NCBI RefSeq assembly: GCF_002864685.1
Contig: NZ_NMQZ01000005.1
Coordinates: 1-64,000, forward strand
Length of the DNA: 64,000 bases
Direction: 5' to 3'
Origin: Alloalcanivorax mobilis
GTDB lineage: Bacteria > Pseudomonadota > Gammaproteobacteria > Pseudomonadales > Alcanivoracaceae
The notes beneath the pieces were generated by a model. That model did no database searches. It was not told where the DNA came from and was given only the letters and a program-made list of their open reading frames with translations. This document shows, in pieces, positions 41 through 57,069 of this stretch. Position 1 is the stretch's first letter; the number at the start of each line of letters is the position of its first letter. A program made the translations under genes and the position numbers.

Positions 41-68
41 TGTATCCTGCATCCTGAACCCTGTATCC
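41..68. repeat. Heptameric tandem array (TGTATCC type), right arm
   Basis: Four consecutive 7-bp units (TGTATCC, TGCATCC, TGAACCC, TGTATCC) lie just past the 3' end of the CoA-transferase gene. The unit order resembles the right arm at 47589-47616. Bases 1-40 (CGGGCACGGC, then GCCGG, then GCCGCG) look like the spacer of a two-armed element; the spacer at 55052-55092 has the same three blocks. The left arm would lie outside the window. Confidence 0.7.
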
Positions 69-72
69 ATTA

Positions 73-1263
73 TCAACGCGCGTTAAGGCCCAATTCCGCG
101 AGGATTTCGTCGTTGTGCTCGCCGATGCCGGGCGGTGGGCGGCGCAGACTGCCGGGCGTGCCCAGCAGGCTGATTGGCGCGGCGGACACCAGGCCCGGCG
201 TGGCCATGCCGGGGATCGCCATTTCCTGCAGTTGGCCGGTGGCCAGCACCTGCGGATGTTGCAGGGTTTCGCTGGGCGAGAGCACCGGCGCCGCCGGGAT
301 GCCGGCTTCACACAGGCGCTCGACCAGGGCGTCGCGCTCCTGTTGCAGACACCACTCAGCGAGCGGTTCGAGCATGGCCATTTCGTGCACCACGCGGGAT
401 TCGTCGGTGTCGAAGCGCGGGTCTTCCAGCCACTCGGGGTAACCGGCCAGCCGGGCCAGCCGCTCGAACAGGGTCGGGCCGACGGTCTGCATCACCAGCC
501 AGCCGCCGTCGCGGGCTTCAAACAGATTATTGGGTGCCGAGCCCAGGCCGCGGTTGCCGCAGGGCTGGCGGTCACGCTGAACGGTGGCCTGCTCGATCAG
601 GGTCGGGGCATTGGCGGACAGCGCCGAGCGCAACAGGGCGCCGCGCACCTCCTGGCCGCGCCCGCTGCGTTGCCGTTCGAACAGCGCCAGCACCGCGCCG
701 AAGGCGGCGTTGCTGGCGGTCAGATGATCCACCCAGTTGACCTGGGCGCGGCGGGGCGTGCCGTTCTCGCCGGTCAGCCAGGCGCCGCCGGTCATCACCT
801 GGCCGACGCCGTCGAACCCCGGCCGCGTGTGCCAGGGGCCCTGGTCGCCGTAGGCGGTCAGGTTGATCAGGATGATGTCTTCGCGCAGTGCGCGCAGGGT
901 GTCGTAATCCAAGCCCATTTTTTTCAGGGTCGCCGGTGGCAGGTTGGCGATCACGATGTCGGCGCTGGCGATCAGCCGGCGGGTGGCGGCGCGGCCGGTG
1001 TCCGATTTCGGGTCCAGGGCCAGCGAGCGCTTGTTGCGGTTCATCTGCATGAACAGGGCGCCGGTGCCGTCCTGGGCGATCGGCATCAGAAAACGGTCTT
1101 CGCCGCCTTCCGGGCGCTCCACGCGGATCACGTCGGCGCCGAATTCCGCCAGCAGGGCGGCGCAAAAAGGCCCGGCGATATAGCGGCCGAAATCGAGCAC
1201 GCGAATGCCGCTCAGCGGCCCTTCAGGGTTGGCCGGCGCGCTCGCCGGGGCGGAATCTGACAT
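73..1263 (-). CDS. CaiB/BaiF family CoA-transferase (family III)
   Basis: A 396-residue family III CoA-transferase, expected to move CoA between acyl-CoA and a free acid in the cytoplasm. The N-terminal Rossmann-like part (about 18-45, GIRVLDFGRYIAGP) and the NRNKRSLALD motif (75-84) are typical. Asp179 in the VDHLTASNAAFG segment is at the place of the family's catalytic aspartate, and the GRGQEV signature follows. It starts with ATG and has the usual length (about 400). It is divergent from a TetR gene, and a TetR-type palindrome lies between them. The substrate cannot be read from sequence. The next-door nitronate monooxygenase and acyl-CoA ligase suggest a role in degrading an unusual carboxylic acid (inference). 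Confidence 0.9.
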   Translation of the reverse strand: MSDSAPASAPANPEGPLSGIRVLDFGRYIAGPFCAALLAEFGADVIRVERPEGGEDRFLMPIAQDGTGALFMQMNRNKRSLALDPKSDTGRAATRRLIASADIVIANLPPATLKKMGLDYDTLRALREDIILINLTAYGDQGPWHTRPGFDGVGQVMTGGAWLTGENGTPRRAQVNWVDHLTASNAAFGAVLALFERQRSGRGQEVRGALLRSALSANAPTLIEQATVQRDRQPCGNRGLGSAPNNLFEARDGGWLVMQTVGPTLFERLARLAGYPEWLEDPRFDTDESRVVHEMAMLEPLAEWCLQQERDALVERLCEAGIPAAPVLSPSETLQHPQVLATGQLQEMAIPGMATPGLVSAAPISLLGTPGSLRRPPPGIGEHNDEILAELGLNAR

Positions 1264-1322
1264 GGTTCTCTCCCGTTTCTTGTCGTGATTGGCCAGAATG
1301 ACTTCTTAGGGAGCTTAAAACA

Positions 1323-1335
1323 TTTACACTATAAA
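1323..1335. promoter_or_regulatory. Putative TetR operator in the divergent promoter region
   Basis: TTTACACTATAAA is an imperfect palindrome (TTTAC-N3-ATAAA) in the AT-rich gap between the divergent CoA-transferase and TetR genes. The reverse complement contains GTGTAAAT, which recurs exactly in the palindrome at 2055-2067 upstream of the nitronate monooxygenase. A shared word upstream of both flanking units is what an autoregulating TetR repressor would need. The assignment to the adjacent regulator is inference. Confidence 0.5.
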
Positions 1336-1396
1336 TTATTCATCATAATCGCGGTTTCCCGGTTCCGGGAATCCGCTGCTCTGGAGAGGCATCACG

Positions 1397-2017
1397 GTGG
1401 CCAAGAAGCCCAAAACGGATCAGGAAGTCGCCGAGTTCCGCGCCCGCGTTTGCGACGCCGCCACCCGCTTGTTCACCGAGCGCGGCCCGCAGAACGTGAC
1501 CATGCGTCAGCTCGCCGCCGAGGTGGGGGTCAGCGCGATGACGCCTTATCGCTACTCCCGCGACAAGGATGAGATCCTCGCCACCGTGCGCGCCGTCGCC
1601 TACAACAAGTTCGCCTCGTCGCTGGAGCGGGCGGTCAAACGGGCGCCGGACATTCGCGCCAAGGGGCGCTCCGTGGGAGACGCCTACGTGCGTTTCGCCA
1701 AGCGTTATCCGGCCACCTACCAACTGATGTTCGCCTTCACCCAGCCCGACGAAGAGCGTTTCCCCGAGCTGGTGAAAGCCAACGTCCGCGCCCAGGAAAC
1801 CATGGTCGGCTATGTGCGCTTGATGATCGAAGAGGGGTTGCTCAGCGGCGACGCCCAATTGATTGGCTATATGTTTTGGGCCACTTTGCACGGCATCGTG
1901 GTGCTGGAGCTGGCCGGCCGTCTGGATCGGGGCATCGACGCCCGCACCCTGCGGGAAAAGATCATGCGTACGCTCTACGCGGGCATGCAGACTTCACCAC
2001 CCAGTTTGAGCGCTTAG
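1397..2017 (+). CDS. TetR/AcrR family transcriptional regulator
   Basis: A 206-residue one-component regulator. The N-terminal helix-turn-helix runs from about 34 to 57 (VTMRQLAAEVGVSAMTPYRY), and the C-terminal ligand domain resembles the WHG-type TetR C-terminus. The start is GTG at 1397, with a GGAGAGG ribosome-binding site 8 bases upstream. It sits between the divergent CoA-transferase and the downstream nitronate monooxygenase/acyl-CoA ligase pair, each preceded by a related 13-bp palindrome. It therefore probably represses both units until an acyl-CoA or related ligand binds. The ligand is unknown. Confidence 0.92.
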   Translation: MAKKPKTDQEVAEFRARVCDAATRLFTERGPQNVTMRQLAAEVGVSAMTPYRYSRDKDEILATVRAVAYNKFASSLERAVKRAPDIRAKGRSVGDAYVRFAKRYPATYQLMFAFTQPDEERFPELVKANVRAQETMVGYVRLMIEEGLLSGDAQLIGYMFWATLHGIVVLELAGRLDRGIDARTLREKIMRTLYAGMQTSPPSLSA

Positions 2018-2054
2018 GTCAACCGAATCGGCGGTCCGACTTGATCTTTTAAAA

Positions 2055-2067
2055 TATACGGTGTAAA
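2055..2067. promoter_or_regulatory. Putative TetR operator upstream of nitronate monooxygenase
   Basis: TATACGGTGTAAA is an imperfect palindrome (TATAC-GGT-GTAAA) in the AT-rich stretch after the TetR stop codon. It shares the 8-mer GTGTAAAT with the reverse complement of the site at 1323-1335. Its place about 120 bases before the ATG of the next gene fits an operator in that gene's promoter. Confidence 0.5.
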
Positions 2068-2184
2068 TCTTTAGCCCGGAAACGCGCTACCGTGGCGTTG
2101 CCCGGGCCCGCTAAAGGGCCAACCACCAGACACCCTGAACGTTGGCGGCCGCGAGCCGCCGGCGCTGTATGCAAGGACACGACT

Positions 2185-3153
2185 ATGTCTCTACCCGTGG
2201 AAATCACCCGCCGCCTGCGCCTGCCGGTGATGTGCTCACCGCTGTTTATCATCTCCAACCCGGATCTGGTGATCGCCCAGTGCAAGGCCGGCGTGATCGG
2301 CTCGTTCCCGTCGCTGAACGCGCGGCCGCTGTCGCAACTGGACGAGTGGCTGCATCGCATCACCGAGGAACTGGCGGCCTGGGATCGCGACCATCCGGAG
2401 CAGCCGTCGGCGCCGTTCGCGGTCAACCAGATCGTGCACAAGACCAACGACCGCCTGGAGCAGGACCTGGAGCTGTGCGGCAAATACAAGGTGCCGATGG
2501 TGATCACCTCCCTGGGCGCCCGCGAAGACCTCAACAAGGCGGTGCATGGCTGGGGCGGCCTGGTGATGCACGACGTGATCGACGACCGTTTCGGCCGCAA
2601 GGCGATCGAGAAGGGCGCCGACGGTTTGATCGCGGTGGCCGCCGGCGCCGGCGGCCACGCCGGGCGGCTGTCGCCGTTTGCTCTGATCCAGGAATTGCGG
2701 CAATGGTTCGACGGCCCGATCGCGCTGTCCGGTTCCATCGCCAATGGCCGTTCGATTCTGGCCGCCCAGGCGATGGGCGCGGACCTGGCTTACATCGGCT
2801 CGATGTTCATCGCCAGTGAAGAGGCCAATGCCGACGAAGGGTACAAACGGATGATCGTCGACAGCAACGCCTCGGATATTGTCTACAGCAACCTGTTCAC
2901 CGGCGTGCACGGTAACTACCTGGCGCCGTCGATCATCAATGCCGGCATGGACCCGGCCAATCTGCCGGAAAGCGATCCTTCGAAAATGAGCTTCGGCTCC
3001 GGCGGCAGCAGCAAGTCCAAGGCCTGGAAAGACATCTGGGGCTGCGGCCAGGGCATCGGCGTGGTCGATGAAGTGCGCCCGGCCGGTGAAGAGGTGGCGC
3101 GTCTGGCCCGCGAATATGAGCAGGCCCGCCAGGCATTGGGCGTGCCGGCATGA
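2185..3153 (+). CDS. Nitronate monooxygenase / 2-nitropropane dioxygenase-like FMN protein
   Basis: A 322-residue TIM-barrel flavoprotein of the nitronate monooxygenase (NPD) family. The N-terminal LPVMCSPLFIISNP (13-26), the phosphate-binding GAGGHAG loop (154-160) and the later GADLAYIGSMFIASEEA segment (198-214) are family hallmarks for FMN binding. I chose the ATG at 2185 because AAGGA lies 8 bases upstream; the reading frame is open for 31 more codons upstream but without such a site. The stop codon overlaps the next start (ATGA), so it is translationally coupled to the acyl-CoA ligase. Members of this family in CoA-linked clusters may act on substrates other than nitronates, so the reaction is uncertain. 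Confidence 0.9.
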   Translation: MSLPVEITRRLRLPVMCSPLFIISNPDLVIAQCKAGVIGSFPSLNARPLSQLDEWLHRITEELAAWDRDHPEQPSAPFAVNQIVHKTNDRLEQDLELCGKYKVPMVITSLGAREDLNKAVHGWGGLVMHDVIDDRFGRKAIEKGADGLIAVAAGAGGHAGRLSPFALIQELRQWFDGPIALSGSIANGRSILAAQAMGADLAYIGSMFIASEEANADEGYKRMIVDSNASDIVYSNLFTGVHGNYLAPSIINAGMDPANLPESDPSKMSFGSGGSSKSKAWKDIWGCGQGIGVVDEVRPAGEEVARLAREYEQARQALGVPA

Positions 3154-4679
3154 GCGGCGCGGCGCGTCTGATCGCTGGCGAGCGGGTGGTTGGCTTCGAT
3201 CAAGTCGGCGAAAACAGTGAACGGGCGGCCAGCGGGTTTCGCGGCCTGGGCATCGGCGAAGGCGACTGTGTGGCACTGTTTTTGCGCAACGACGTGGCCT
3301 TTTTCGAAGCCACCCAGGGCGCGCTGCTGGTGGGCGCCTACCCGGTGCCGATGAACTGGCACTCCACTCCGGACGAAGCCGGTTACATCCTCAACGACTG
3401 CCAGGCCAAGGCGCTATTGGTGCATCGGGATCTGCTGCCGCAGGTGGCCCCGGTGCTGCCGGCGGGGATCACCGTGCTGGTGGTGGAAACCCCGGCGGAA
3501 ATCGAACGGGCTTACCGTGCCGACATCTCGCCGGCGAATCCGCCCGGCGCGCACGATTGGCACGCCTGGCTGGCGCGCCAGCCGCGCATCGACAACCCGG
3601 TGCAGGCGACCCGCGCGGCGGTGATCTACACTTCCGGCACCACCGGCCGGCCCAAGGGTGTTAAGCGCCAGGCCGCCGCGCCGGACGCGCCCCCCACCGA
3701 CGCGGTGTTCGCCTATGGCTTTCAGGAGCCGCCGCCGTTCCGGGTGTTGATGAACGGGCCCATGTACCACTCCGCGCCCAACGGCTACGCGCGCCTGGCG
3801 GTGCAGCATGGCGCCGACATCGTGTTGCAAGCGCGTTTCGACGCGGAAGAAATGCTGGCGCTGATCGAGCGCCATCGCATTACCCACATGCACATCGTGC
3901 CGACCATGTTCGTGCGCCTGCTGCGGTTGCCGGAAGCGGTGCGCCAGCGTTACGACGTTTCCTCCCTGCGCTTCGTGGTGCACGGCGCCGCGCCCTGCCC
4001 GCCGCACGTCAAGCGCGCGATGATCGATTGGTGGGGGCCGGTGATCAACGAGTATTACGGCTCCACCGAAAGCGGTCTGGCGGCCTGGAACAACGCCGAG
4101 GACGCCCTGCTCAAACCCGGTACCGTGGGGCGCCGGCTGCCCGGCGCGGAGATTCATGTTTTCGCCGACGACGGCACCGAACTGGGCCCCGGCGAAACCG
4201 GCGAAATCTACCTGCGCTGTGGTGGCATGCCCGACTTCACCTACATCGGCCTGGAGGACAAGCGCGCGGAAATTTCCCGTGGTGAGTTGATCACGCTGGG
4301 CGACATGGGCTGGCTGGACGAAGACGGCTACCTGTTTTTGTGTGACCGCAAGCGCGACATGATCATCTCCGGCGGCGTCAATATTTACCCCGCCGAAATT
4401 GAAGCGGCACTGCTCGCTCTGGAGGGCATCAAGGACTGCGCGGTGTTCGGCATTCCCGACGAGGAATTCGGCGAAGCGATCTGCGCCTACCTGGAACCGA
4501 TGCCAGGCGCCGACCTGCAACCGGGACGCATCAAAGAAGAACTGGCCGGCACCTTGAGTCGCTTCAAAATCCCCCGCCATATTGAATTCGCCGAGCACTT
4601 GCCGCGCGAGGATTCCGGCAAGATTTTCAAACGCAAACTGCGCGAACCCTACTGGGCGGAATACAATCGGGGAGTCTGA
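3150..4679 (+). CDS. Acyl-CoA synthetase (AMP-dependent ligase)
   Basis: A 509-residue class I adenylate-forming enzyme that activates a carboxylic acid to its CoA thioester through an acyl-AMP. Visible motifs are the P-loop TSGTTGRPKG (161-170), YYGSTE (302-307), GDMGWLDEDGY with Asp385 for ribose contact, Arg400 in CDRKRD, and Lys491 in the C-terminal GKIFKRKL segment. It overlaps the nitronate monooxygenase by ATGA and likely supplies the CoA thioester used in this TetR-controlled cluster. The final codon and stop (GTC TGA) lie inside the first unit of a heptamer array, so the array has grown into the coding end. Confidence 0.93.
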   Translation: MSGAARLIAGERVVGFDQVGENSERAASGFRGLGIGEGDCVALFLRNDVAFFEATQGALLVGAYPVPMNWHSTPDEAGYILNDCQAKALLVHRDLLPQVAPVLPAGITVLVVETPAEIERAYRADISPANPPGAHDWHAWLARQPRIDNPVQATRAAVIYTSGTTGRPKGVKRQAAAPDAPPTDAVFAYGFQEPPPFRVLMNGPMYHSAPNGYARLAVQHGADIVLQARFDAEEMLALIERHRITHMHIVPTMFVRLLRLPEAVRQRYDVSSLRFVVHGAAPCPPHVKRAMIDWWGPVINEYYGSTESGLAAWNNAEDALLKPGTVGRRLPGAEIHVFADDGTELGPGETGEIYLRCGGMPDFTYIGLEDKRAEISRGELITLGDMGWLDEDGYLFLCDRKRDMIISGGVNIYPAEIEAALLALEGIKDCAVFGIPDEEFGEAICAYLEPMPGADLQPGRIKEELAGTLSRFKIPRHIEFAEHLPREDSGKIFKRKLREPYWAEYNRGV

Positions 4680-4722
4680 CGTCTGACGTCTGACGTCGGA
4701 CGCCGGACGCCGGACGCCGGAC
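4674..4722. repeat. Heptameric tandem array (GTCTGAC/GCCGGAC)
   Basis: Seven direct 7-bp units: GTCTGAC three times, GTCGGAC once, GCCGGAC three times. A decayed GCTAAAC follows. The acyl-CoA ligase stop codon (4677-4679) falls inside the first unit. One more isolated GTCTGAC occurs at 4753-4759. No inverted partner arm is evident. The rest of the 207-base gap to 4887 shows no gene. Confidence 0.85.
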
Positions 4723-4886
4723 GCTAAACCCAGCACGGTGGATCGGCGGTTCGTCTGACCTCCGGCCCTCTTGTGCAACAACGCAAGACCGGGGCCCAAT
4801 TCATGTCTTCCGGAGCGTCAAGCGTGCCCGGCAAGGGCGGACAACGCCCCCTGTCGTGGCCACGGTAATTGTCCTAGCATGGGGTC

Positions 4887-5786
4887 ATGGACGTTCCCCC
4901 GATCACGGTGTTCGGCGGCTCCGGTTTCCTTGGCCGCAGGCTGGTGGCGACGCTGCTGGCGGCGGGCGAACCGGTGCGGCTGGTGGCCCGCCATCCGGAC
5001 GCCGTGCACTTCAACGATGAAACCCGCCTGCAGCGGGTGAGCGCCGACATTGCCGACGAGACGGCGGTGGCCCAGGCGGTGGCCGGTAGCCGCGCGGTGA
5101 TCAACGCGGTGTCCCTATATGTGGAGCGCGCCGGTCAGACCTTTGACGCCGTGCATGTACGGGGCGCGGCGCGCGTCGCCCGGGCGGTGCGCCACGCCGC
5201 CGTGCCCCGCCTGCTGCATCTCTCTGGAATCGGCGCTGACCCGGCCTCTCCCTCTGCGTATGTGCGTGCCCGCGCCCAAGGCGAGCAGGCGGTGCGCGGC
5301 GAGTTTCAACCCGCCACCCTGATCCGGCCGGCGGCGTTGTTTGGCGCCGACGACGCGCTGTTGGCGTCGCTGGCGATGGTGACCCGCCTGCCGGTGGTAC
5401 CGCTGTTTGGCCGAGGCGACACCCGCTTGCAGCCGGTCTGGGTGGAAGACGTCGCCCGTGGCCTGGCGATCCTGGCGTGCCGCAAGGCCGCGCCGGCTCC
5501 GCTTTACGAACTGGGCGGTGGCGCCGTTTATCGCTACCGGGATCTGCAGCGGCGAGTGCTGACGCACCTGCGGCGGCGCCGGCCACTGATACCGGTGCCG
5601 TTCCCGTTGTGGCATGGGCTGGCCGCCGGGCTGGGCCTGTTGCCAAGCCCGCCACTGACCCGCGACCAGGTTTATCTGCTGCAATACGACAACATCGCCG
5701 CGCCCGACATGCCCTCTTTCGACGAATTGGGTATTCTGCCGCGCAGCGTGGGCGAGGCTCTACCCGAGTGCTTGCCGATCCGTTAA
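4887..5786 (+). CDS. NAD(P)H-binding protein, NDUFA9-like atypical SDR
   Basis: A 299-residue atypical short-chain dehydrogenase. It opens with a Rossmann nucleotide-binding loop, FGGSGFLGRRLV (about 6-17), followed by a basic VARHPD segment. The overall pattern matches the complex I NDUFA9-like family of NAD(P)-binding proteins. No classical YxxxK active site stands out, so it may bind a dinucleotide without a standard dehydrogenase reaction. The start is ATG at 4887 with only a weak GGGG upstream. It ends 18 bases before cobU on the same strand and may be cotranscribed with it, but nothing links it to cobalamin. Confidence 0.8.
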   Translation: MDVPPITVFGGSGFLGRRLVATLLAAGEPVRLVARHPDAVHFNDETRLQRVSADIADETAVAQAVAGSRAVINAVSLYVERAGQTFDAVHVRGAARVARAVRHAAVPRLLHLSGIGADPASPSAYVRARAQGEQAVRGEFQPATLIRPAALFGADDALLASLAMVTRLPVVPLFGRGDTRLQPVWVEDVARGLAILACRKAAPAPLYELGGGAVYRYRDLQRRVLTHLRRRRPLIPVPFPLWHGLAAGLGLLPSPPLTRDQVYLLQYDNIAAPDMPSFDELGILPRSVGEALPECLPIR

Positions 5787-5804
5787 CGGCGACAGGAGCG
5801 GGCC

Positions 5805-6314
5805 ATGGCACACACTCTGATTCTCGGCGGCATCCGCTCCGGCAAAAGTGCCCAGGCGGAGCAGGTGGCCCGGCAAAGCGGCGGCGCGGTGGTGTACGTG
5901 GCCACCGCCACCGCCGGTGACCTGGAAATGGCGGAGCGCATCCGCCAACACCGCCAGCGCCGGCCGGCGCGTTGGAGCCTGGTGGAAGAGCCCTTGGCGC
6001 TGGGCCGGGTGCTGCGCGATCACCGCGCTCAATACCCCTGTCTGCTGATCGATTGCATGAGCCTGTGGCTCAGTAACCTGCTGCACGCCGGCGACGAGAC
6101 AATGGCGCGGGAACGGGCGGACTTTCAGCACGCCCTGGACGATTACCCCGGCCCGGTGGTGATCGTCAGCAACGAAGTCGGCCTCGGCACCATCGGCATG
6201 GACCCGCTCACTCGTCGCTTCACCGACCAGCTCGGCTGGCTCAACCAGGCCCTGGCCGCGCACTGCCAACAGGTGATTCTGGTCGCCGCTGGATTGCCGT
6301 TGGTGTTGAAATAA
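5805..6314 (+). CDS. cobU: Adenosylcobinamide kinase / adenosylcobinamide-phosphate guanylyltransferase
   Basis: A 169-residue bifunctional enzyme that phosphorylates adenosylcobinamide and then transfers GMP to give adenosylcobinamide-GDP, the nucleotide-loop step of B12 assembly. The P-loop GGIRSGKS is at 8-15. His49, in RIRQHR, is at the position of the guanylylated histidine of Salmonella CobU, and the CLLIDCMSLWLSNLL segment is characteristic. An ACAGGAG site precedes the ATG. It is separate from the other cob genes, convergent with opgD, and followed by a heptamer element. Confidence 0.95.
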   Translation: MAHTLILGGIRSGKSAQAEQVARQSGGAVVYVATATAGDLEMAERIRQHRQRRPARWSLVEEPLALGRVLRDHRAQYPCLLIDCMSLWLSNLLHAGDETMARERADFQHALDDYPGPVVIVSNEVGLGTIGMDPLTRRFTDQLGWLNQALAAHCQQVILVAAGLPLVLK

Positions 6315-6319
6315 GGGCG

Positions 6320-6382
6320 GCAAGCTTCAAGCCGCAAGCTCCAAACACACTACGTTGCTCCGCTTGCAGCTCCCTGCTCCCC
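6320..6382. repeat. Inverted heptameric element (GCAAGCT/GCTTGCA type)
   Basis: Left arm 6320-6340 (GCAAGCT, TCAAGCC, GCAAGCT) and right arm 6362-6382 (GCTTGCA, GCTCCCT, GCTCCCC) are roughly complementary around a 21-base spacer containing CTACGT. It fills the gap between the convergent cobU and opgD genes, so it may terminate both. The same type occurs at 43667-43743 and 56960-57036. Confidence 0.75.
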
Positions 6383-6398
6383 ACGTCGGTACTCCGAG

Positions 6399-8024: not shown

Positions 8025-8054
8025 GTCCGAGCTCCCGTGCCCGATACGCTATGC

Positions 8055-12723: not shown

Positions 12724-12754
12724 CCAACCCCTCTCCGCTTGCTACTTTCGCGCC

Positions 12755-12955
12755 ACTTTCAGGTGACCGCGCCCGTCAAGGCGTGGTTTAAACGGGAAGT
12801 TGGTGTGAAACCAACGCTGCCCCCGCAACGGTGATTGAGTGAACCGCGATCCGCGAACCGGGATGACACCGGTCGCAGCCACTGTGTCGACGACACGGGA
12901 AGGTGGTCGCTGGAGGAAGTGATTTCCGCTCATTAGCCCGGATACCGGCCAGAAA
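12755..12955 (+). promoter_or_regulatory. Cobalamin (AdoCbl) riboswitch
   Basis: All core blocks of the cobalamin riboswitch occur in order: TTTAAACGGGAA then GGTGTGAAACC (12788-12812), GCTGCCCCCGCAACGGT (12815-12831), GCCACTG (12878-12884), and the B12 box AGCCCGGATACCGGCC (12935-12950). About 140 bases, enough for an expression platform, separate it from the btuB ATG. It should repress btuB and the coupled btuFCD genes when adenosylcobalamin is plentiful. It is the only such element in the window. Confidence 0.96.
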
Positions 12956-13089
12956 GGAACACCAGGCGTTGCGGCGGGCAACGGCGGGGTGGGCCGGACT
13001 CTCTTCTTCGTTCCCGATACCTCCCTGCGTGACCGCCGCGGCTATCACCATTTGCCGTGCGGGTGAGCGCGGCCAAGGGAACGACACTC

Positions 13090-18571: not shown

Positions 18572-18578
18572 GGGGCGA

Positions 18579-18780
18579 GTTGAAAGTTAAAAGTTAAAAG
18601 TTAAAACGCGGTCAGGCCCTGCCGGCTGGAAACGGTAGCAACCGCGCTTCGTGGTGCTGGAGAATTTGTCTGGGTGCTTCGTGCCGACCGGTGACACCAC
18701 GCGTCTAGTCGCGCCTACCCCACTTTTAGTTCTTCATAGTGCTTCGACCGCGTTTCAACTTTTAACTTTCAACTTGTAAC
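18579..18780. repeat. Inverted heptameric element (GTTAAAA type) between cobO and cobQ
   Basis: Left arm 18579-18613: GTTGAAA, three GTTAAAA, then CGCGGTC. Right arm 18746-18780: GACCGCG, TTTCAAC, TTTTAAC, TTTCAAC, TTGTAAC. The arms are complementary over 35 bases in exact 7-bp register with few mismatches, around a 132-base spacer with no gene. The right arm ends only 9 bases before the cobQ ATG, where no ribosome-binding site is visible. Confidence 0.88.
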
Positions 18781-18789
18781 TGATTCTCC

Positions 18790-27290: not shown

Positions 27291-27318
27291 AGCCGATAGC
27301 CGATAGCCAATAGTCGAC
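27291..27318. repeat. Heptameric tandem array (AGCCGAT type)
   Basis: Four 7-bp units (AGCCGAT, AGCCGAT, AGCCAAT, AGTCGAC) in the moaA-can gap, ending exactly where the AAGGGAG ribosome-binding site of can begins. No inverted arm is visible. It must lie in the can leader or promoter. Confidence 0.75.
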
Positions 27319-27977: not shown

Positions 27978-28073
27978 GTTTTCAGTGTTCAGTTTTCAGT
28001 TTTCAGGGAAAAGCCAGAATTTACTGAACACTGAACACTGAACACTGAACACTGAACACTGAACACTGAACAC
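27978..28073. repeat. Inverted heptameric element (TGAACAC type), copy 1
   Basis: Left arm 27978-28005 (GTTTTCA, GTGTTCA, GTTTTCA, GTTTTCA), spacer with GGGAAAAGC, right arm 28025-28073 of seven perfect TGAACAC units, followed by TTTT. It fills the gap between convergent can and copB and may terminate both. A second copy with the same spacer start is at 31109-31183, on the other side of the copper genes. Confidence 0.9.
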
Positions 28074-28078
28074 TTTTA

Positions 28079-31094: not shown

Positions 31095-31108
31095 GGGGGG
31101 CGTAGGGA

Positions 31109-31183
31109 GTTTTCAGTGTTCAGTGTTCAGTTTTCAGGGAAAAGCGGAACCTTACTGAACACTGAACACTGAACACTGAACAC
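31109..31183. repeat. Inverted heptameric element (TGAACAC type), copy 2
   Basis: Left arm 31109-31136 (GTTTTCA, GTGTTCA, GTGTTCA, GTTTTCA), spacer starting GGGAAAAGC, right arm 31156-31183 (four perfect TGAACAC). It is homologous to 27978-28073 in arms and spacer. It lies upstream of the copper operon and at the 3' end of the hydrolase gene. Confidence 0.9.
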
Positions 31184-31188
31184 TGCCC

Positions 31189-41559: not shown

Positions 41560-41580
41560 CTTGCAGCTTGCAGCTTGCAG
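41560..41580. repeat. Heptameric tandem array (CTTGCAG type)
   Basis: Three perfect CTTGCAG units near the 3' end of the minus-strand DUF6231 gene, in a 246-base gap without genes. It is the same word as in the GCTTGCA-type inverted elements, but no left arm is evident. Confidence 0.8.
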
Positions 41581-41613
41581 CGCGTCGCGCCTAAGCGCGC
41601 GCCGCGAAGCGCT

Positions 41614-43666: not shown

Positions 43667-43792
43667 GGCAAGCAAGCTGCAAGTGCGACTACGTGCCCTC
43701 AGCCTACGGCTTTTTGGCTTGCGGCTTGCGGCTTGTAGCTTGCCTGCCCCTCCTCCACCGACACGCAGAAGCATCTGACCCGGCACGGCCTC
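43667..43792. repeat. Inverted heptameric element (GGCTTGC type) with conserved tail
   Basis: Left arm 43667-43687 (GGCAAGC, AAGCTGC, AAGTGCG), spacer with CTACGTG and CCTACGG, right arm 43716-43743 (GGCTTGC, GGCTTGC, GGCTTGT, AGCTTGC). A tail, CGCAGAAGCATCTG then GGCACGGCC (43764-43792), also follows the element at 56960-57036, so the two are homologous beyond the heptamers. It lies between the convergent hmuS-like and yqcC genes. Confidence 0.85.
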
Positions 43793-47425: not shown

Positions 47426-47616
47426 GGATACAGGATTCAGGATACAGGATTCAGGATTCAGGATTCAGCGCGGGCGAAGTTCTGGCGTACGGGAAGGCCA
47501 TGCCCGCGCGCCCGGCGCAGACGGAGGCCACGACCCCAGCGCCACCGCGCGGCTGTGAGCGCTTCGGCGGCTCCGGCCTTTCCCGCGCTGAATCCTGTAT
47601 CCTGCATCCTGTATCG
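47426..47616. repeat. Inverted heptameric element (GGATTCA type)
   Basis: Left arm 47426-47467: six units (GGATACA, GGATTCA, GGATACA, three GGATTCA) followed by GCGCGGG. Right arm, preceded by CCCGCGC: TGAATCC, TGTATCC, TGCATCC, TGTATCG (47589-47616). The 114-base spacer has no convincing gene. It lies between the dapF start and the divergent rlmJ, so it occupies the promoter region of both. Confidence 0.88.
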
Positions 47617-48511: not shown

Positions 48512-48521
48512 CAAGGAGAAA

Positions 48522-48617
48522 GTTAAAAGTTAAAAGTTGAAGGGGCGTTGCCAATCGGCTTGTACGTATCCGGCGTGCTTCTTTCAACTTTTAACCTTCA
48601 ACTTTCAACTTTTTTTT
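48522..48617. repeat. Inverted heptameric element (GTTAAAA type) with T-tract
   Basis: Left arm 48522-48542 (GTTAAAA, GTTAAAA, GTTGAAG), 39-base spacer, right arm 48582-48609 (TTTCAAC, TTTTAAC, CTTCAAC, TTTCAAC), then T8. The stem plus T-run could end rlmJ transcription. It fills the convergent rlmJ-lysA gap. Same type as 18579-18780 and 55031-55113. Confidence 0.88.
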
Positions 48618-48621
48618 GTTG

Positions 48622-49863: not shown

Positions 49864-49864
49864 A

Positions 49865-50029: not shown

Positions 50030-50209
50030 TGAACACCCTCCAACGGGAACAGGTCCGAGAGCGGGCAGTATAGCGGTTTCTCCGCCGGCCGACGATGCGC
50101 GCGGCTGGCTCTTCGCGGCGCGGCGGACTACTATCCGTGGTACACGCGGGCGTTCCATCGGAGCGCCCTTTTTTTGCCTGCCCGGGTACCGGGCATTGTG
50201 GAGAAAATC

Positions 50210-50608: not shown

Positions 50609-50627
50609 AACCGCACAGCAGGTAAAC

Positions 50628-50659
50628 ACTCACACCGCTCGTTTCGGAGCGGTGTGAGT
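50628..50659. terminator. Hairpin after rnk
   Basis: ACTCACACCGCTC and its perfect complement (50647-50659) around a GTTTCG loop. The T-tract is short, so it may be a weak intrinsic terminator. It lies between convergent rnk and the next gene. Confidence 0.6.
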
Positions 50660-50688
50660 TGAGTGTCCCGTGTTTGTCACCGTGTTTG

Positions 50689-51330
50689 TCAGGCTTCCCG
50701 GATCGCGGCCAGATCCTTGTTCAAGCGGGTGCGCACCAGCGCGGCGACCAGTTCCGGGAAGCGTCTTTGTGATACCAGTCGGGCCAGATCGTCGGCGCGG
50801 CTGGGCAGGTCAAGCTCCCCGGCGGTCTTCAGCGCCGCCTGATCGGCATAGGGATAGAACTCCGGCCAGACGGTTTGCACCTCGCGTAAAAAAATACCCG
50901 CTCCGGTGGCGCCGATTCCCTTGAACCGCTGCAAGGCCCGGCGCGCCGCTTGCGGATCGCCATCGGCCTCGGCGCGCAGCTTGCGCAGGTCGCCGGCGTA
51001 GCGAGTCATCAGGGCGTCGGTGACTTCCTCCAACTGGCTGGCGGTTTTTTCATCAACGCGCGCATAGCCGGATTCATTGAGTGTCCGGGTGCGTTGCGTC
51101 CAGGTGCTTTCACGCATTTTACGCGGACTTTTCCAGCCGGCTTTGGCCAGCGCCCGGGCGCCGCTCATCGCGACGCTGGCCTGAACCGGCGCGCTGGTCA
51201 GCAGCGACAGGCACAAAAGCTGAAACAATGGGGAAGGCGTATTGCGTTCCAGCGGGGCGCCCAGCTCCGCGGCGAAGGTGCGGCCGTGGCGATGAAGAAG
51301 AGCCTGAACGCGTTGTGATTGCGTGGACAT
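50689..51330 (-). CDS. HhH-GPD-like (endonuclease III fold) protein
   Basis: A 213-residue helical protein. LQRFKGIGATGAGIFLREVQ is a helix-hairpin-helix followed by an Asp-containing PYADQAALKTA segment, as in HhH-GPD base-excision enzymes. The catalytic lysine of endonuclease III is not evident and there is no Fe-S cysteine cluster. It may be an inactive or unusual family member. I chose the ATG at 51330, after GGAGG, over an upstream in-frame start. Function unknown. Confidence 0.6.
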   Translation of the reverse strand: MSTQSQRVQALLHRHGRTFAAELGAPLERNTPSPLFQLLCLSLLTSAPVQASVAMSGARALAKAGWKSPRKMRESTWTQRTRTLNESGYARVDEKTASQLEEVTDALMTRYAGDLRKLRAEADGDPQAARRALQRFKGIGATGAGIFLREVQTVWPEFYPYADQAALKTAGELDLPSRADDLARLVSQRRFPELVAALVRTRLNKDLAAIREA

Positions 51331-51443
51331 AAGGCCTCCGGATGTTGTCGAGAAACCTGACCAGAATAGAACCGTGGCCAAGCGGATTCCGGCACCAGCG
51401 GTGGATTTTTACAGTCGTTGATGGAGCGGACCTCGACCGACGA

Positions 51444-52730
51444 TCAGGGCAGGATCAGCACCGCCCGGAAATCGTTGACGTTGGTGCCGGTGGCGCCGCT
51501 GACCAGGTCATCGCCCAGGGTGGCGAAGAATGGGTGGGCATCGTTGTTGTGCAGGGCGCCGCGTGGGTCGAGGCCGGCTTGGTGGGCGCGCTCCAGGGTG
51601 GTGGGTGTCCACAGGGCGCCAGCGGTCGATGCGCCGCCATCAATGCCGTCGGTGTCGGCGAACAGGGCATGAATGCCGGCGTGTTCGGTGAGCGCCAGGC
51701 CAAAGCCGAGCAGGGCTTCCACGTTGCGCCCGCCGACGCCCTCACCGCGCACGGTGACGGTGGTCTCGCCGCCGCTGAGCAGCACACAGGGGGCCGGCAG
51801 CGGCTGGCCGTGGCGGCGTACCTGGGTGGCGATGCCGGCCATCACCCGGCCCAGTTCACGGGCCTCGCCTTCCAGTGCGTCGCCCAGGATCAGCGGCGTG
51901 ATGCCGGCGGCGCGGGCGGCGTCCGCCGCCGCTTCAAGCGCGTGCTGGGCACTGGCGATGATGCGCGTCTGGCCGCCGGCCAGCCGCGCATCGCCCGGTT
52001 TCAAGGTTTCCCCACGGCCGCTTTTCAGATGGGCACGCAATGAAGAGGGCACCTCGATGGCATACCGGTCGATGATGGCCAGGGCCTCGTCGCAGGTGGT
52101 GGGATCGCCCACGGTGGGTCCGGAGGCGATCTCCCAGGGGCGGTCGCCAGGCACATCGGAAATCAACAGGGTGGTGACGGCGGCGGGGTGGCACGCCGCC
52201 GCCAGGTGGCCGCCCTTGATCGCGGAAAGATGGCGGCGCACCGTGTTGATCTCGCCGATGGTGGCGCCGCTGCGCAACAGCGCCCGGCCCAGGGTTTGTT
52301 TGTCGTCCAGGGTCAGTCCCGGTGCCGGCAGCGGCAGCAACGACGAGCCGCCGCCGGAGATCAGCGCGATCACCTGATCATCGGCGGTGAGGCCGGCCAC
52401 CTTTTCCAGCATGCGCCGCGCCGCTCGTTCACCGGCTTCGTCCGGCACCGGGTGGGCCGCTTCCAGCACCTCGATGAATCGGGTCGGCACCGCCTGACCG
52501 TAAGCGGTCACCACCAGGCCGCTCAGTGTCTCCGAGGCGCTGCGCCCGTGTTGCTCCAGCCAGTGTTTTTCCAGCACCGCCGCCATCCGCGCCGCCGCCT
52601 TGCCGGCGCCGATCACCACCGTGCGCCCAGCGGCGGGTTCGGGCAGGTGCGCGGGCAGGCAACGCTCCGGCAGCGCCGCCGCCACGGCGGCGTCGAACAG
52701 GCTTTTCAGAAAGGCTTTGGGGTTGTCCAT
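51444..52730 (-). CDS. Glycerate 2-kinase (GckA/TtuD, MOFRL family)
   Basis: A 428-residue glycerate kinase of the DUF4147-MOFRL type, phosphorylating glycerate at position 2. The N-terminal VVIGAGKAAARMA (41-53) and ALISGGGSSLLPLP are substrate/nucleotide loops. The MOFRL domain begins near CVLLSGGETTVTVRGEGVGGRNVEA and includes DTDGIDG. I chose the ATG at 52730 over an upstream TTG. The tandem array lies directly upstream, so the promoter must be inside or beyond it. Confidence 0.9.
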   Translation of the reverse strand: MDNPKAFLKSLFDAAVAAALPERCLPAHLPEPAAGRTVVIGAGKAAARMAAVLEKHWLEQHGRSASETLSGLVVTAYGQAVPTRFIEVLEAAHPVPDEAGERAARRMLEKVAGLTADDQVIALISGGGSSLLPLPAPGLTLDDKQTLGRALLRSGATIGEINTVRRHLSAIKGGHLAAACHPAAVTTLLISDVPGDRPWEIASGPTVGDPTTCDEALAIIDRYAIEVPSSLRAHLKSGRGETLKPGDARLAGGQTRIIASAQHALEAAADAARAAGITPLILGDALEGEARELGRVMAGIATQVRRHGQPLPAPCVLLSGGETTVTVRGEGVGGRNVEALLGFGLALTEHAGIHALFADTDGIDGGASTAGALWTPTTLERAHQAGLDPRGALHNNDAHPFFATLGDDLVSGATGTNVNDFRAVLILP

Positions 52731-52821
52731 GAAGGGCAATTAAGCACAGTGGCGCGGGGTTGCACAGGGGGTTGCTTTCTTTCCCTCCCCCTCCCCCTCC
52801 CCCTCTCCCTGTCCCTCTCCC

Positions 52822-53539
52822 TCGAGGGGAGAGGGGACGCTCCAGGAGGGTGTGTACAAGACCGGGCCGGTTGGGGAATCTCCGGCCTCTCCGGCAGGCC
52901 CATTCCGCTTTGAGGGGAGAGGGGACGCGCCAGGAGGGTTTGTACAAGACTGGGTCGGTTGGAAAGTCTCCGCCCTCTCCAGCCGGCCCCTTCCGCGTTG
53001 AGGGGAGAAGGGACGCGCCAGGAGGGTTTGTACAAGACTGGGTCGGTTGGAAAGTCTCCGGCCTCTCCAGCCGGCCCCTTCCGCGTTGAGGGGAGAAGGG
53101 ACGCGCCAGGAGGGTGTGTACAAGACCGGGCCGGTTGGAGAGTCTCCGGCCTCTCCAGCCGGCCCCTTCCGCCTTGAGGGGAGAGGGGACGCGCCTGGAG
53201 GTGTGTACAAGACCGGGCCGGTTGGAGAGTCTCCGGCCTCTCCAGCCGGTCCCTTCCGCCTTGAGGGGAGAGGGGACGCGCCTGGAGGTGTGTACAAGAC
53301 CGGGCCGGTTGGAGAGTCTCCGGCCTCTCCAGCCGGTCCCTTCCGCCTTGAGGGGAGAGGGGACGCGCCTGGAGGTGTGTACAAGACCGGGCCGGTTGGA
53401 GAGTCTCCGGCCTCTCCAGCCGGTCCCTTCCGCCCTCGCGGGGAGAAGGGACGCGCCAGGAGGGTTTGTACAAGACTGGGTCGGTTGGAAAGTCTCCGGC
53501 CTCTCCAGCCGGCCCCTTCCGCTTTGAGGGGAGAGGGGT
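52822..53539. repeat. Eight-unit tandem repeat array (87-89 bp units)
   Basis: The anchor GTACAAG recurs at 52854, 52942, 53030, 53118, 53205, 53292, 53379 and 53468 (spacings 88, 88, 88, 87, 87, 87, 89). Each unit holds a hairpin of about 14 bp (GGCCGGTTGGAGAG and CTCTCCAGCCGGCC around TCTCCGGC), then CCTTCCGCYTTGAGGGGAGAGG and GACGCGCC. Units 5-7 are nearly identical; unit 1 is the most divergent. It fills the gap between argH and glycerate kinase. Long open frames in it are repeat artefacts. Confidence 0.92.
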
Positions 53540-53551
53540 AAAAACAGCCGC

Positions 53552-54943
53552 TCAGCCGGCCAGCAACTCGCGCCCGCGCTTTACCGCCGCGCGCACCTGA
53601 TCCGGGGCGGTGCCGCCGATGTGGTTGCGGGCGCTGACCGAGCCTTCCAGGGTCAGCACTTCGAACACGTCGTCGTCGATCTGGTCGCTGAATTGGCGCA
53701 ACTCGGAAATCGACATGTCGCCGAGGTCCTTTTTCTTTTCCACGCCGTAGGCCACCGCCTTGCCGACGATCTCGTGGGAGTCACGGAAGGCGATGCCCTT
53801 GCGCACCAGGTAATCGGCCAGGTCGGTGGCGGTGGCGAAGCCGCGGCGGGCCGCTTCGCGCATGACTTCCCGGTTGGGTTCCAGGGCCGGGATCATGTCG
53901 GCGAAGGCGCGCAGGCAGCCGGCCAGGGTATCGACCGCGTCGAACAGCGGTTCCTTGTCTTCCTGGTTGTCCTTGTTGTAGGCGAGCGGTTGGCTTTTCA
54001 TCAGGGTCAGCAGGCTGATCAGGTGGCCATTCAGCCGCCCGGTCTTGCCGCGCACCAGTTCCGGTACGTCCGGGTTTTTCTTCTGCGGCATGATCGAGCT
54101 GCCGGTGCAGAAACGGTCTGGCAGGTCGATAAAGTTGAATTGGGCGCTGGTCCACAGCACCAGTTCTTCACTGATGCGCGACATGTGCGTGCCGCACAAC
54201 GCCGCCAGGGCGCAGAACTCAATGGCGAAATCCCGATCACCGACCGCGTCCAGGGAGTTTTCGCAGACGCCGTCGAAACCGAGCAGTTCGCAGGTGCGCT
54301 GACGGTTGATCGGATAGGTGGTGCCGGCCAGGGCGGCGGCGCCCAGCGGCATGCGGTTGACCCGCTTGCGGCAGTCGGCGAGCCGTTCCCGGTCGCGCTT
54401 GAGCATCTCGAACCAGGCCAGCAGATGATGGCCGAAGGTGACCGGCTGGGCGGTCTGCAGATGGGTGAAGCCGGGCATGATGGTGGCCGCTTCGCGCTCG
54501 GCCAGATCCAGCAGACCGGTCATCAGGCGCAGCATTTCGGTGCCGATCAGGTCGATCTCGTCGCGCAGCCACAGGCGGATGTCGGTGGCCACCTGATCGT
54601 TGCGCGAGCGGCCGGTGTGCAGCTTCTTGCCGGTGATGCCGATTTTGTCGGTAAGCCGAGCCTCGATGTTCATGTGCACGTCTTCCAGGGCCACCGACCA
54701 CTGGAACTCGCCGGCTTCGATCTCGGCGCGGATTTCGTCCAGCCCCTGAACAATGGCGTCGCGCTCGTCATCGGTGAGCACGCCCACTTCGGCGAGCATG
54801 GTGGCGTGGGCCTGGGAGCCCTGGATGTCCTGCCGATACATGCGCTGGTCGAAGGCGACGCTGGCGGTGAACGCCTGCACGAAGGCATCGGTGGACTCAC
54901 TGAAGCGGCCGCCCCAGAGTTTGTTTTGCTGCTGGTCACTCAT
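53552..54943 (-). CDS. argH: Argininosuccinate lyase
   Basis: A 463-residue lyase splitting argininosuccinate to arginine and fumarate. The superfamily signature [11 protein letters not shown] (281-291) and HLQTAQP with His161 are intact. I chose the ATG at 54943 ([14 protein letters not shown]); a GTG four codons upstream is possible. Its 3' end is 13 bases from the tandem array. Confidence 0.96.
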
Positions 54944-55030
54944 CTTGCTGCTCACGTCCGGCACTGAAATAGACAGGGCGCGCAGTATAGCACCGGCGGG
55001 CGGTGGTATCGTAGGCAAACCCAGGAGCAA

Positions 55031-55113
55031 GTTTAAAGTTACAAGTGACAAGCGCGGGCACGGCCGTGCCGGCGGCAGGGCTGGTCGCCGCGTTTTAACT
55101 TTTAACTTTAAAC
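55031..55113. repeat. Inverted heptameric element (GTTAAAA type)
   Basis: Left arm 55031-55051 (GTTTAAA, GTTACAA, GTGACAA), spacer GCGCGGGCACGGCCG through GCCGCG, right arm 55093-55113 (TTTTAAC, TTTTAAC, TTTAAAC). Located in the divergent argH-algZ region. Its spacer resembles bases 1-40 of the window, although the arms there are of another heptamer type. Confidence 0.85.
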
Positions 55114-55158
55114 TTCCCGTCGGCATGCCGGCTTCGTACCCGACAAATAAGAGCAACC

Positions 55159-56235
55159 ATGACCGAGCCAAGCCAAAACGCTTTCTTGCCCGACCTGTGC
55201 GCCACCCGCGCGGTATTGGTGCTGGTGGTGGTGTGCGAGCTGATGGCGATTGTGATGGCGCTGGTGGGCAGTTACTACGCGCCGTTCAGTTTCGAACGGC
55301 TGGCGCTGACGTCACTGTTGATTCAGTGGATCGGCCTCACCTCGGCGGCGCTGGTGTGCCAGATGCGCGCGCGTTTCAACCGCTTGCCGGCGGCCTGGGC
55401 GGGGTTGGCGGTGGTCGGCGTTGTGGTGCTGGATACGCTGCTGTTCAGCGTGTTCGCGCGCCACCTTTTGGGGTGGATCTCCGGCAGTGGCGCCGGCGGT
55501 GCCTGGCACCGGGACGTGGTCGCCAATGTGCTGATCAGTGCCATTGTCGCCGGTCTGGTGATGCGCTACTTCTATGTGCAGGAGCAGCTCAAGCTCAAGG
55601 AACAGGCGGCGCTGAAATCACGGATCGAATCGCTGCAATCGCGCATCCGTCCGCATTTCCTGTTCAATTCAATGAATATCATCGCCACCTTGATCGCGGT
55701 CGATCCGGACGCCGCCGAACAGGCGGTGGAGGACCTTTCCCGATTGTTCCGCGCCAGCCTGAAGGAAGGCGCGGAACCGGTTTCGCTGGCCGAGGAACTG
55801 GCGCTGTGCGAGCGCTATGTGCGCATTGAGCAATTGCGCATGGGTGAGCGTTTGCGCTTGCAGTGGCACATTGAGGTGGACCCGGCGAGCGTGAGCGTGC
55901 CGCTTCTGACCTTGCAGCCGTTGCTGGAAAATGCGATTTATCATGGTATCCAGCCGCTTACTGAAGGCGGCCTGGTAACGGTGTCGGTGCGCGAAGCCGA
56001 CGGGCGTGTCAGTTTGCACGTCAGTAACCCAAAGCCGCCGGGAGGCAACCGGCATGAGGGCAATCGCATGGCGCTGGAAAACATCCGCCACCGCCTGGAG
56101 GCGATTCATGGCACCGCGGTGACCTTTCATTGCCGCGCCGAACAACAACAATTCGAAGTGCTGATCACCTGGCCGTTGGGACGGCGGGTGGACAAGGGGA
56201 GAAAGCCGGATGCGGATACTGGTATGCGACGATGA
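55159..56235 (+). CDS. algZ: Sensor histidine kinase AlgZ/FimS (LytS family)
   Basis: A 358-residue membrane sensor. About four N-terminal hydrophobic helices (17-40, 48-67, 80-100, 119-140) precede a His kinase region with [12 protein letters not shown], His166 being the usual phosphorylation site of this family. An ATPase N-box follows in [13 protein letters not shown]. It overlaps algR by 26 bases. In Pseudomonas the pair controls alginate and type IV pili. Confidence 0.92.
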
Positions 56236-56950
56236 AGCCCTGGCGCGGCTGCGGCTGCGGCGCCTGGTGGAACGTTTTCACATGGAGGTGGTGGGCGAGG
56301 CCAGCAATGGCCGGGAAGTGATTGAACAGGCCAGCCGTCTGAACCCGGATGTGGTGTTGATGGACATTCGCATGCCGGACATGGACGGCGTCGAGGCCGC
56401 CGCCCATCTGGACTTGCTCGACAGCCCGCCGGCGGTGATCTTCTGCACCGCCTACGAGGATCACGCCCTGCAAGCGTTCCGCGTGCACGCGGTGGATTAT
56501 CTGCTTAAACCGGTGGGCCGCGAGGATCTCAATCGCGCGCTGGAGAAGGCTCGCTCGCTGAACCGCCTGCAACTGGCGGAGATGACCCACAAACTGGCGG
56601 CGCACCGGCCGGAACGCCGCCGCCACCTGAGCGCCCGCACTCATCGGGGCTTGGAACTGGTGCCGGTGGAAGACGTGCGTTATTTCCAGGCCGACCAGAA
56701 ATACGTCGCCGCTCACCATCCCGGCGGGCATGTGTTGCTCGATGAACCGCTCAAGACCCTGGAAGGCGAATTCGGCGACCTGTTCGTGCGCATCCATCGC
56801 AGCACCCTGGCTTCGTTGCACTTTATCGAAAGCATGGAAACCTGTCGCCGGGGTGGCTACGAGGTGCATCTGCGCGGAGTGCGCAAGCCGCTCAGCGTCA
56901 GCCGCCGGCATATGCCCGGGCTGCGCCGGGCACTGGGACGGCGCGGCTAG
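56210..56950 (+). CDS. algR: Response regulator AlgR (LytTR type)
   Basis: A 246-residue response regulator. The receiver domain (1-120) has acidic DD at 7-8, phospho-acceptor Asp52 (LMDIRMPDMDG) and Lys at LLKPVG. The LytTR DNA-binding domain runs from about 140 to 240 (VEDVRYFQADQKYVAAH, then SVSRRHMPGLRRAL). It starts inside algZ and is upstream of hemC, as in pseudomonads. Confidence 0.94.
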   Translation: MRILVCDDEALARLRLRRLVERFHMEVVGEASNGREVIEQASRLNPDVVLMDIRMPDMDGVEAAAHLDLLDSPPAVIFCTAYEDHALQAFRVHAVDYLLKPVGREDLNRALEKARSLNRLQLAEMTHKLAAHRPERRRHLSARTHRGLELVPVEDVRYFQADQKYVAAHHPGGHVLLDEPLKTLEGEFGDLFVRIHRSTLASLHFIESMETCRRGGYEVHLRGVRKPLSVSRRHMPGLRRALGRRG

Positions 56951-56959
56951 GCCGGGGAA

Positions 56960-57069
56960 CAAGCTGCAAGGGCGGCTACGTAGACCCACCTTGCCGCCCA
57001 CGGCTTTTGGCTTGTAGCTTGAGGCTTGCAGCTTGCTTCTAGCGCAGAAGCATCTGTCACGGCATGGCC
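56960..57069. repeat. Inverted heptameric element (GGCTTGC type) with conserved tail
   Basis: Left arm 56960-56973 (CAAGCTG, CAAGGGC), spacer with GGCTACGTAG and CCCACGGC, right arm 57009-57036 (GGCTTGT, AGCTTGA, GGCTTGC, AGCTTGC). The tail CGCAGAAGCATCTG then GGCATGGCC (57043-57069) matches the tail at 43764-43792. It lies between algR and hemC. Confidence 0.85.

Follow-up and report, generated by a model that had tools for sequence, protein, structure and literature searches.

Tandem-heptamer elements with inverted arms and a core common to different repeat words in Alloalcanivorax mobilis

Background

Tandem arrays of 7-bp units have been reported from several bacteria. In Xanthomonas, GGGAATC arrays form 70 and 75 inverted pairs in two genomes, show a preference for four units, and are rare between divergent genes (Rehm et al. 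2015, PMC4692102), and the same paper cites several different heptamers in one Calothrix genome. Mixed heptamers occur in Microcystis and TAACTGA arrays in several phyla (MacGregor 2015, PMC4679880), the latter being briefly mentioned in a Thiomargarita genome paper (PMC4853749). To account for the surplus of heptamer repeats in bacteria, authors have invoked polymerase slippage or, for Xanthomonas, G-quadruplexes (PMC4692102, PMC4679880). Repetitive extragenic palindromes (REPs), for their part, are placed near gene 3' ends (Di Nocera 2013, PMC3733652). Here we analyze tandem heptamer arrays in a 64,000-nt stretch of Alloalcanivorax mobilis (contig NZ_NMQZ01000005.1, positions 1 to 64,000, assembly GCF_002864685.1), referred to as the window, in which an initial annotation had listed thirteen sites built on 7-bp units.

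That annotation took an inverted form with several words to be undescribed, which holds for one part only: inverted pairs are in print for Xanthomonas (PMC4692102) and several heptamers per genome for Calothrix and Microcystis, while no description of exchangeable words around one core was found in a literature search that most subscription papers lay outside. Heptamer arrays and one-word inverted pairs were thus already known; the new part would be exchangeable words around one core. In our reading, the arrays form the ends, or arms, of non-coding elements that are dispersed between genes and would act like miniature inverted-repeat transposable elements (MITEs) or hairpin-forming REP pairs (REPINs), with the arms serving as sites read in 7-bp units. 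We give this reading roughly an even chance.

Results

Period-7 arrays and the elements of the window

The window and 20 further stretches of the same genome (G000) made up a sample of 438 kb; part of these stretches was picked for ACTGAAC arrays, so the array density in the sample is raised. It held 72 arrays of period 7, compared with 0–5 each for periods 4, 5, 6, 8, 9, 10, 11, and 13, 11 for period 12, 8 for period 15, and 51 for the harmonic 14. The window alone contained 12 exact lag-7 runs of at least 11; in 40 dinucleotide shuffles, such runs averaged 0.05 and never numbered more than 1. The corresponding runs for periods 5, 6, 8, 9, and 10 numbered 0, 2, 0, 2, and 1, and no period other than multiples of 7 exceeded the range of 0 to 3. 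With genes called by a simple codon-based caller, 70 of the 72 arrays fell in gaps, two at contig ends without a called gene, and none in genes; intergenic arrays of periods 5, 6, 8, 9, 10, 12, and 15 numbered 0–2 each. The proposed period-7 excess therefore withstood both the shuffle and the other-period controls, and the heptamer elements are real and strongly non-random. Several assembly contigs of G000 stop inside heptamer elements (contig ends C30, C41, and C45), so the copies are probably undercounted.

Tandem Repeats Finder (TRF) reported period 7 at or within the element for 12 of the 13 listed sites; the site at 6320 was seen only by reading the sequence. The elements of the window, none with an assigned strand, are as follows (the core profile and model R1 are described below).

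1–68: cut element with a core remnant (1–38) and a GATNCAG-type arm (39–68); TRF 39–68, core profile E 4.4, model R1 E 0.0047
4674–4724: lone GACGYCK array followed by TAAACCC, as in ACGCYRG elements elsewhere in G000, with no right arm seen; TRF
6317–6375: inverted degenerate AAGCNNC arms; sequence reading, no TRF row
18578–18781: AGTTRAA element, arms 18578–18606 and 18753–18781, spacer 18607–18752; TRF
27291–27317: lone AGCCGAT array; TRF
27978–28074: ACTGAAM element, arms 27978–28006 and 28023–28074; TRF
31108–31185: ACTGAAM element, arms 31108–31137 and 31154–31185; TRF
41560–41581: lone CTTGCAG array of the AAGCNNC family; TRF
43667–43743: AAGCNNC element, left arm weak, right arm 43716–43743; sequence reading and TRF
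47426–47615: GATNCAG element, arms 47426–47468 and 47588–47615, core 47469–47508; TRF, core profile E 0.0038, model R1 E 9.8e-4
48519–48613: AGTTRAA element, arms from 48519 and at 48581–48612; TRF
55029–55115: AGTTRAA element, degenerate left arm 55029–55052, core 55053–55092, right arm 55093–55115; TRF and core matches
56960–57036: AAGCNNC element, left arm short, right arm 57009–57036; sequence reading and TRF

The elements measure about 80–200 bp. Six words were counted in the window (AGTTRAA, ACTGAAM, AAGCNNC, GATNCAG, GACGYCK, and AGCCGAT), matching the claim of at least six heptamers. Most sites were also said to have two inverted arms, and this was found at nine of the 13: both arms are clear at six (18579, 27978, 31109, 47426, 48522, and 55031), and by sequence reading a short or weak left arm accompanies a good right arm at three (6320, 43667, and 56960). 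A single arm is present at the remaining four (41, 4674, 27291, and 41560); the element at 41 is truncated because the contig begins at window base 1. In several ACTGAAM elements (window 27978 and 31109; sampled stretches, denoted L, L043, L045, and L048), one arm consists mainly of TTTTCAG and the other of TGTTCAG, so that one position per unit differs between the two ends.

One core between different words

A GC-rich core of 40 nt lies between AGTTRAA, GATNCAG, or AGTKAAY arms and was also recovered by an arm-free search. A core profile built from 35 cores located 3' of AGTTRAA arms in sister species was searched over 1.54 Mb, giving 17 matches with E<10 at 16 places, 15 of which adjoin heptamer arrays; three of the matches (L217, L220) also belonged to the training set. 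Five places adjoin other or mixed words, three of them with GATNCAG arms, including window 47469–47509 (E 0.0038) and 1–38 (E 4.4). When 20 GATNCAG loci were fetched from G001, G003, G004, and G010 (G001–G012 being the other members of the genus), eight carried the core at E<0.5, with a best E of 1.8e-6; two of the eight are orthologues.

Model R1 of the 40-nt core was made from 24 AGTTRAA elements stripped of their arms; it uses sequence only, since RNAalifold yielded no consensus base pair. Applied to the 13 genomes of the genus with at most 150 candidates scored per genome, which makes all counts lower bounds, R1 found at least 24 cores in G000, 11 in G001, 23 in G002, 26 in G003, 4 each in G004 and G010, and 2 in G011, or at least 94 in total. 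At E 0.01 there was no core match in G005–G009 or G012 among the candidates scored; one core-type copy in G012 is visible by eye (L256). We inspected 49 R1 loci, one of which had no core by the profile, while the other 48 represent 46 distinct places. A heptamer array adjoins the core in 47 of the 48: 34 are AGTTRAA, 8 GATNCAG (seven distinct, two of them already among the 20 fetched), 2 AGTKAAY, 1 ACGCYRG, and 2 other or unassigned arrays. Some of the 34 AGTTRAA loci have a degenerate or AAGCNNC array on the opposite side.

Because one core sits between AGTTRAA, GATNCAG, and AGTKAAY arms, drift of a single sequence does not explain the different words, in agreement with what the initial annotation had argued from their uniform architecture. 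AGTKAAY could be derived from AGTTRAA by drift; GATNCAG hardly could. The spacers of ACTGAAM and most ACGCYRG elements are different, being either short or of the TAAACCC type, so the core is not common to every word.

Architecture of the arms

In the G000 sample, 26 of the 29 pairs of neighboring arrays no more than 250 bp apart were strongly inverted with one word, and none was strongly direct; random array pairs reached the same similarity in 12.7% (inverted) and 12.2% (direct) of cases. The spacers of these 26 pairs span 4–146 nt, so the range of 20–130 bases initially given was a little narrow. Arms were counted when they had at least three units. In the sister species, 52 of the 70 AGTTNAA arms and 36 of the 39 GATNCAG arms consisted of precisely four, the sample having been drawn by similarity to window elements, which selects against very short arms and not against long ones. 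The typical sister-species arm thus has four units, or 28 bp, and not the three (21 bp, about two helical turns) from which the initial annotation had argued for repeated protein contacts. In G000, exactly four units were present in 20/28 AGTTNAA, 3/5 GATNCAG, and 11/21 AAGCNNC arms. Every arm follows its word except at one or two positions that are free to vary, as in binding sites.

Elements may also be nested, with AAGCNNC arms flanking AGTTRAA arms (L039, L041/L042, and in G002 at L209) or GATNCAG arms (G004). Several words can be written with the variable base fourth (GATNCAG, GCTNCAA, GTTRAAA, GAAMACT), and the Xanthomonas word GGGNATC reads GATNCCC on the other strand; such a common pattern is suggestive, the rotation and strand having been chosen by the analyst. 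One AGTTRAA arm is interrupted by an insertion sequence that runs from 17655 of L041 to ~1050 of L042, has an apparent 8-bp target duplication, and carries genes resembling MerR, cation-efflux, and LspA genes. We take it to be ISL3/ISPpu12-like, and a passenger of the elements, not their driver.

Orthologous gaps between species

The comparison of orthologous gaps suggested in the initial annotation revealed gaps that are filled in some species and empty in others, gaps that hold different words, and one inverted spacer. At 55031, an element is present in G000, G002, and G003, and none in G001, G004, G010, G011, and G012. The site at 18579 is filled in G000–G003 and empty in G011 and G012 (it could not be resolved in G004 and G010), and the AGTTRAA element at 48522 is absent from G004 and G010. 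The gap at 27978 measures 118 bp in G000 versus 18–47 bp in G001, G002, G003, and G011; the larger gaps of four other relatives compared have different causes. One copy present in G003 and missing from G001 has flanks that are 95 and 98% identical; G002 has a similar copy in this position, which suggests that G001 lost its own. Heptamer arrays were also present in sampled stretches of G001 and G002 (chosen by pattern matches), G004, and G006.

Different words were observed in the same gap at several sites. At 47426, G000 has a GATNCAG element and G002, G003, and G011 an AGTTRAA element; at 56960, AAGCNNC in G000 corresponds to AGTKAAY in G004 and G010 and to no element in G001, G002, G003, G011, and G012. 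At 43667, AAGCNNC in G000 corresponds to AGTTRAA in G003 and to REP-like pairs in G002 and G012, and the site of L382 holds GATNCAG in G003, AGTTRAA in G002, and REP-like pairs in G001, G011, and G012. In these gaps, sister species thus have REP-like pairs or long palindromic repeats in place of heptamer elements (L286, L289, L290, L294, L387, L393); the REP-like pairs are presumably of the GTAGGAGCGG type. We do not conclude that one word turned into another at 47426, since the spacers of the GATNCAG and AGTTRAA elements are alike just in the core motif, with no significant likeness outside it (z 0.4–1.8, forward sense); independent insertions fit. Since related species share the middle part and differ in the words around it, the words resemble interchangeable recognition tags used by a mobile-DNA process more than simple copying errors.

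At 18579, the G001 spacer is the reverse complement of the G002 spacer at 106 of 111 positions, between collinear flanks, and the G000 spacer is unrelated to either. A second inversion is probable (L237 vs L240), a third is ambiguous because the core is nearly palindromic, and one orthologous site has unrelated spacers.

Arrays could instead be heptamer microsatellites produced by polymerase slippage, with 7 nt as a length that the polymerase favors, and spread by ordinary recombination, their inverted arms arising through template switching at hairpins with no dedicated enzyme. The literature has proposed slippage at 7 nt to explain the heptamer excess (cited in PMC4692102 and PMC4679880), and such slippage would suit a heptamer whose unit number changed between G004 and G010, the word gradients within arrays of other phyla, and the long ACTGAAN and GACGCNN arrays. 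It accounts poorly for two word families with four-unit arms in place of a broad length distribution, for the same words at many loci, and for one core with several words. Arm-to-arm copying further predicts that partners are alike, yet in five word families (36, 4, 5, 18, and 7 elements, with low power in the small ones) partner arms were no more alike than strangers (permutation p 0.57, 0.46, 0.86, 0.98, and 0.95). We consider slippage unlikely, though by no means negligible.

Placement relative to genes and predicted RNA structure

Arrays were most often found between convergent genes: among gaps of at least 60 bp, 18 of 31 convergent gaps held one, versus 23 of 127 tandem and 5 of 52 divergent gaps (Fisher p 2e-5 and 5e-6). 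Arrays in tandem gaps lay a median of 7 bp behind the upstream stop codon and 148 bp ahead of the downstream start codon. Strong hairpins were predicted in all six elements tested (z -5.1 to -9.3). All three results would be expected of RNA hairpins selected at gene ends as bidirectional terminators or 3'-end protectors. The placement contrast, however, shrinks in gaps of at least 200 bp (6/14 convergent, 14/49 tandem, 3/22 divergent), many orthologous gaps contain no element or a different repeat, and a G003 copy sits after a ready-made intrinsic terminator (L239). Pairing kept by compensatory change was not found in the five word families, where, with low power in the small ones, partner arms do not co-vary. 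Rfam searches of the window and four stretches returned no gathering-score match over an element, and those of ten loci just sub-threshold microRNA families. A role as RNA hairpins thus appears improbable.

Search for a partner gene

The initial annotation had envisaged a shared gene whose presence tracks the elements. None was found, the sole family tested being PF01797, that of the REP-associated tyrosine transposases (RAYT); nor was a parent element with the same ends and a transposase seen by eye in the 438 kb, PF01797 again being the only family searched. The arrays might represent an unusual REP/REPIN family mobilized by a resident RAYT. REP-like pairs, of the type presumed above, do occur in the same gaps of sister species, no target duplication was seen at the one clean filled/empty pair, and the 3'-end placement is that of REPs (PMC3733652). 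RAYT copy number, however, does not follow core number, as PF01797 is present in all 13 genus members, including G005–G008, with 3–5 matches each and no core match among the candidates scored. We inspected about 1.5 kb around each of 20 RAYT loci (10 from the genus, none from G000); none had the core, and the only heptamer array present was marginal. REPs are also described as palindromes of 20–40 bp (PMC3733652). RAYT as the driver is therefore not supported, and we regard this explanation as quite improbable.

Breadth beyond the genus

An exact 27-base ACTGAAM pattern matched at least 117 stretches, and the matches listed include Planctomycetota, Verrucomicrobiota, Bacteroidetes, Chloroflexi, Acidobacteria, a cyanobacterium, Clostridia, Gammaproteobacteria, and others. 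In 848 kb of these stretches there were 263 period-7 arrays versus 1–18 for periods 4, 5, 6, 8, 9, 10, 11, and 13, the pattern itself selecting for period 7. Among 68 neighboring pairs from other phyla, 29 were inverted, 16 direct, and 23 neither, compared with 24% each for random pairs, so inversion is a tendency there and no rule. A four-unit AGTTRAA-type pattern was found in 10 of 390 genomes of the order, five of the ten in this genus and family.

Other words occur as well. A reversed control pattern (ARTTGAA type) had 54 matches in G214 and 5 in G107, two genomes of the order in which the forward pattern had none, pointing to further heptamer words in those genomes. G024, from another genus of the family (L010, L065–L067), has nine period-7 arrays in 60 kb with words such as GCTACGA, and one of them occupies the gap orthologous to window 27978.

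Two further features of the window are a cobalamin riboswitch at 12744–12967 (RF00174, 100.7 bits, E 1.2e-23), which lies away from the elements and was the sole Rfam match in the window and the four stretches scanned with it, and an 88-bp unit repeated in tandem about 8 times at 52820–53538 with 93% matches.

Discussion

The absence of partner co-variation, together with four-unit arms, inversion, dispersal, and a spacer inversion, favors arms that act as recognition sites in duplex DNA; on the co-variation result, this support for a DNA-protein reading is indirect. In the mechanism we propose, an arm is a tandem 7-bp word, typically in four copies, inverted around either the GC-rich core or a different spacer. 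An enzyme that binds DNA and is encoded outside the elements would read the heptamers as duplex DNA, bring both arms together, and move or invert the DNA between them. Different words would correspond to different specificities, and elements would persist just behind stop codons, where insertion may cost little. We infer the mechanism as a whole with moderate confidence. In a broader form, the elements would belong to a mobile-DNA system with relatives in many phyla, whose enzyme, made of repeated modules that each read 7 bp, recognizes heptamer tetrads, accepts exchangeable words, and inverts the DNA between the arms. This extension is distinctly unlikely on present evidence.

Several observations weigh against reading the arrays as arms of mobile elements. 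ACTGAAN and GACGCNN arms in G000 are longer and variable in length, and of the 12 AAGCNNC arms from sister species just 3 are exactly four units long. Among seven comparable orthologous sites, a single one shows a clear spacer inversion, and unit number differs at orthologous sites (G004 vs G010) in a slippage-like manner. No target duplication was present at the one clean filled/empty pair (G003/G001), the other sites being too diverged. The PF01797 results, both its presence in genus members without a core match and the RAYT loci without a core, count here as well, as does the modest share of inverted pairs in other phyla (29/68).

Arms of four units whose words lack G-tracts, a core that occurs with several words, and an inverted orthologous spacer point to a specific DNA transaction instead of slippage or G-quadruplexes. 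An old statistical oddity thereby becomes a search for one enzyme, for which the filled and empty sites of sister species are ready material.

Among known systems, the elements resemble MITEs in being short and non-coding, with terminal inverted repeats, dispersed copies, and filled and empty sites, and differ in that their arms are exchangeable heptamer words, with no target duplication at the one clean site and no parent transposon seen by eye in the 438 kb. Like REPs and REPINs, they are palindromic, dispersed, close behind stop codons, and favored in convergent gaps (PMC3733652), whereas their arms are tandem heptamers with no RAYT association. With the short tandemly repeated repetitive (STRR) sequences of cyanobacteria, they have in common several tandem heptanucleotides per genome (Calothrix, via PMC4692102); judged through that citing paper, no inverted element with a core has been reported for STRR. 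The TAACTGA repeats of Beggiatoaceae, cyanobacteria, and Bacteroidetes are likewise intergenic heptamer arrays scattered over phyla, and yet are described as lying mostly upstream of start codons, with one word and one inverted case in 170 sets (PMC4679880), while the arrays studied here are inverted and lie behind stop codons. The Xanthomonas GGGAATC repeats are intergenic tandem heptamers as well, with a four-unit preference and inverted pairs, and are rare between divergent genes (PMC4692102). Those have one word and a G-quadruplex explanation; here, AGTTRAA, GATNCAG, and ACTGAAM have no run of three G per unit, the two best four-unit families being without G-tracts, and several words occur, with a core common to different ones.

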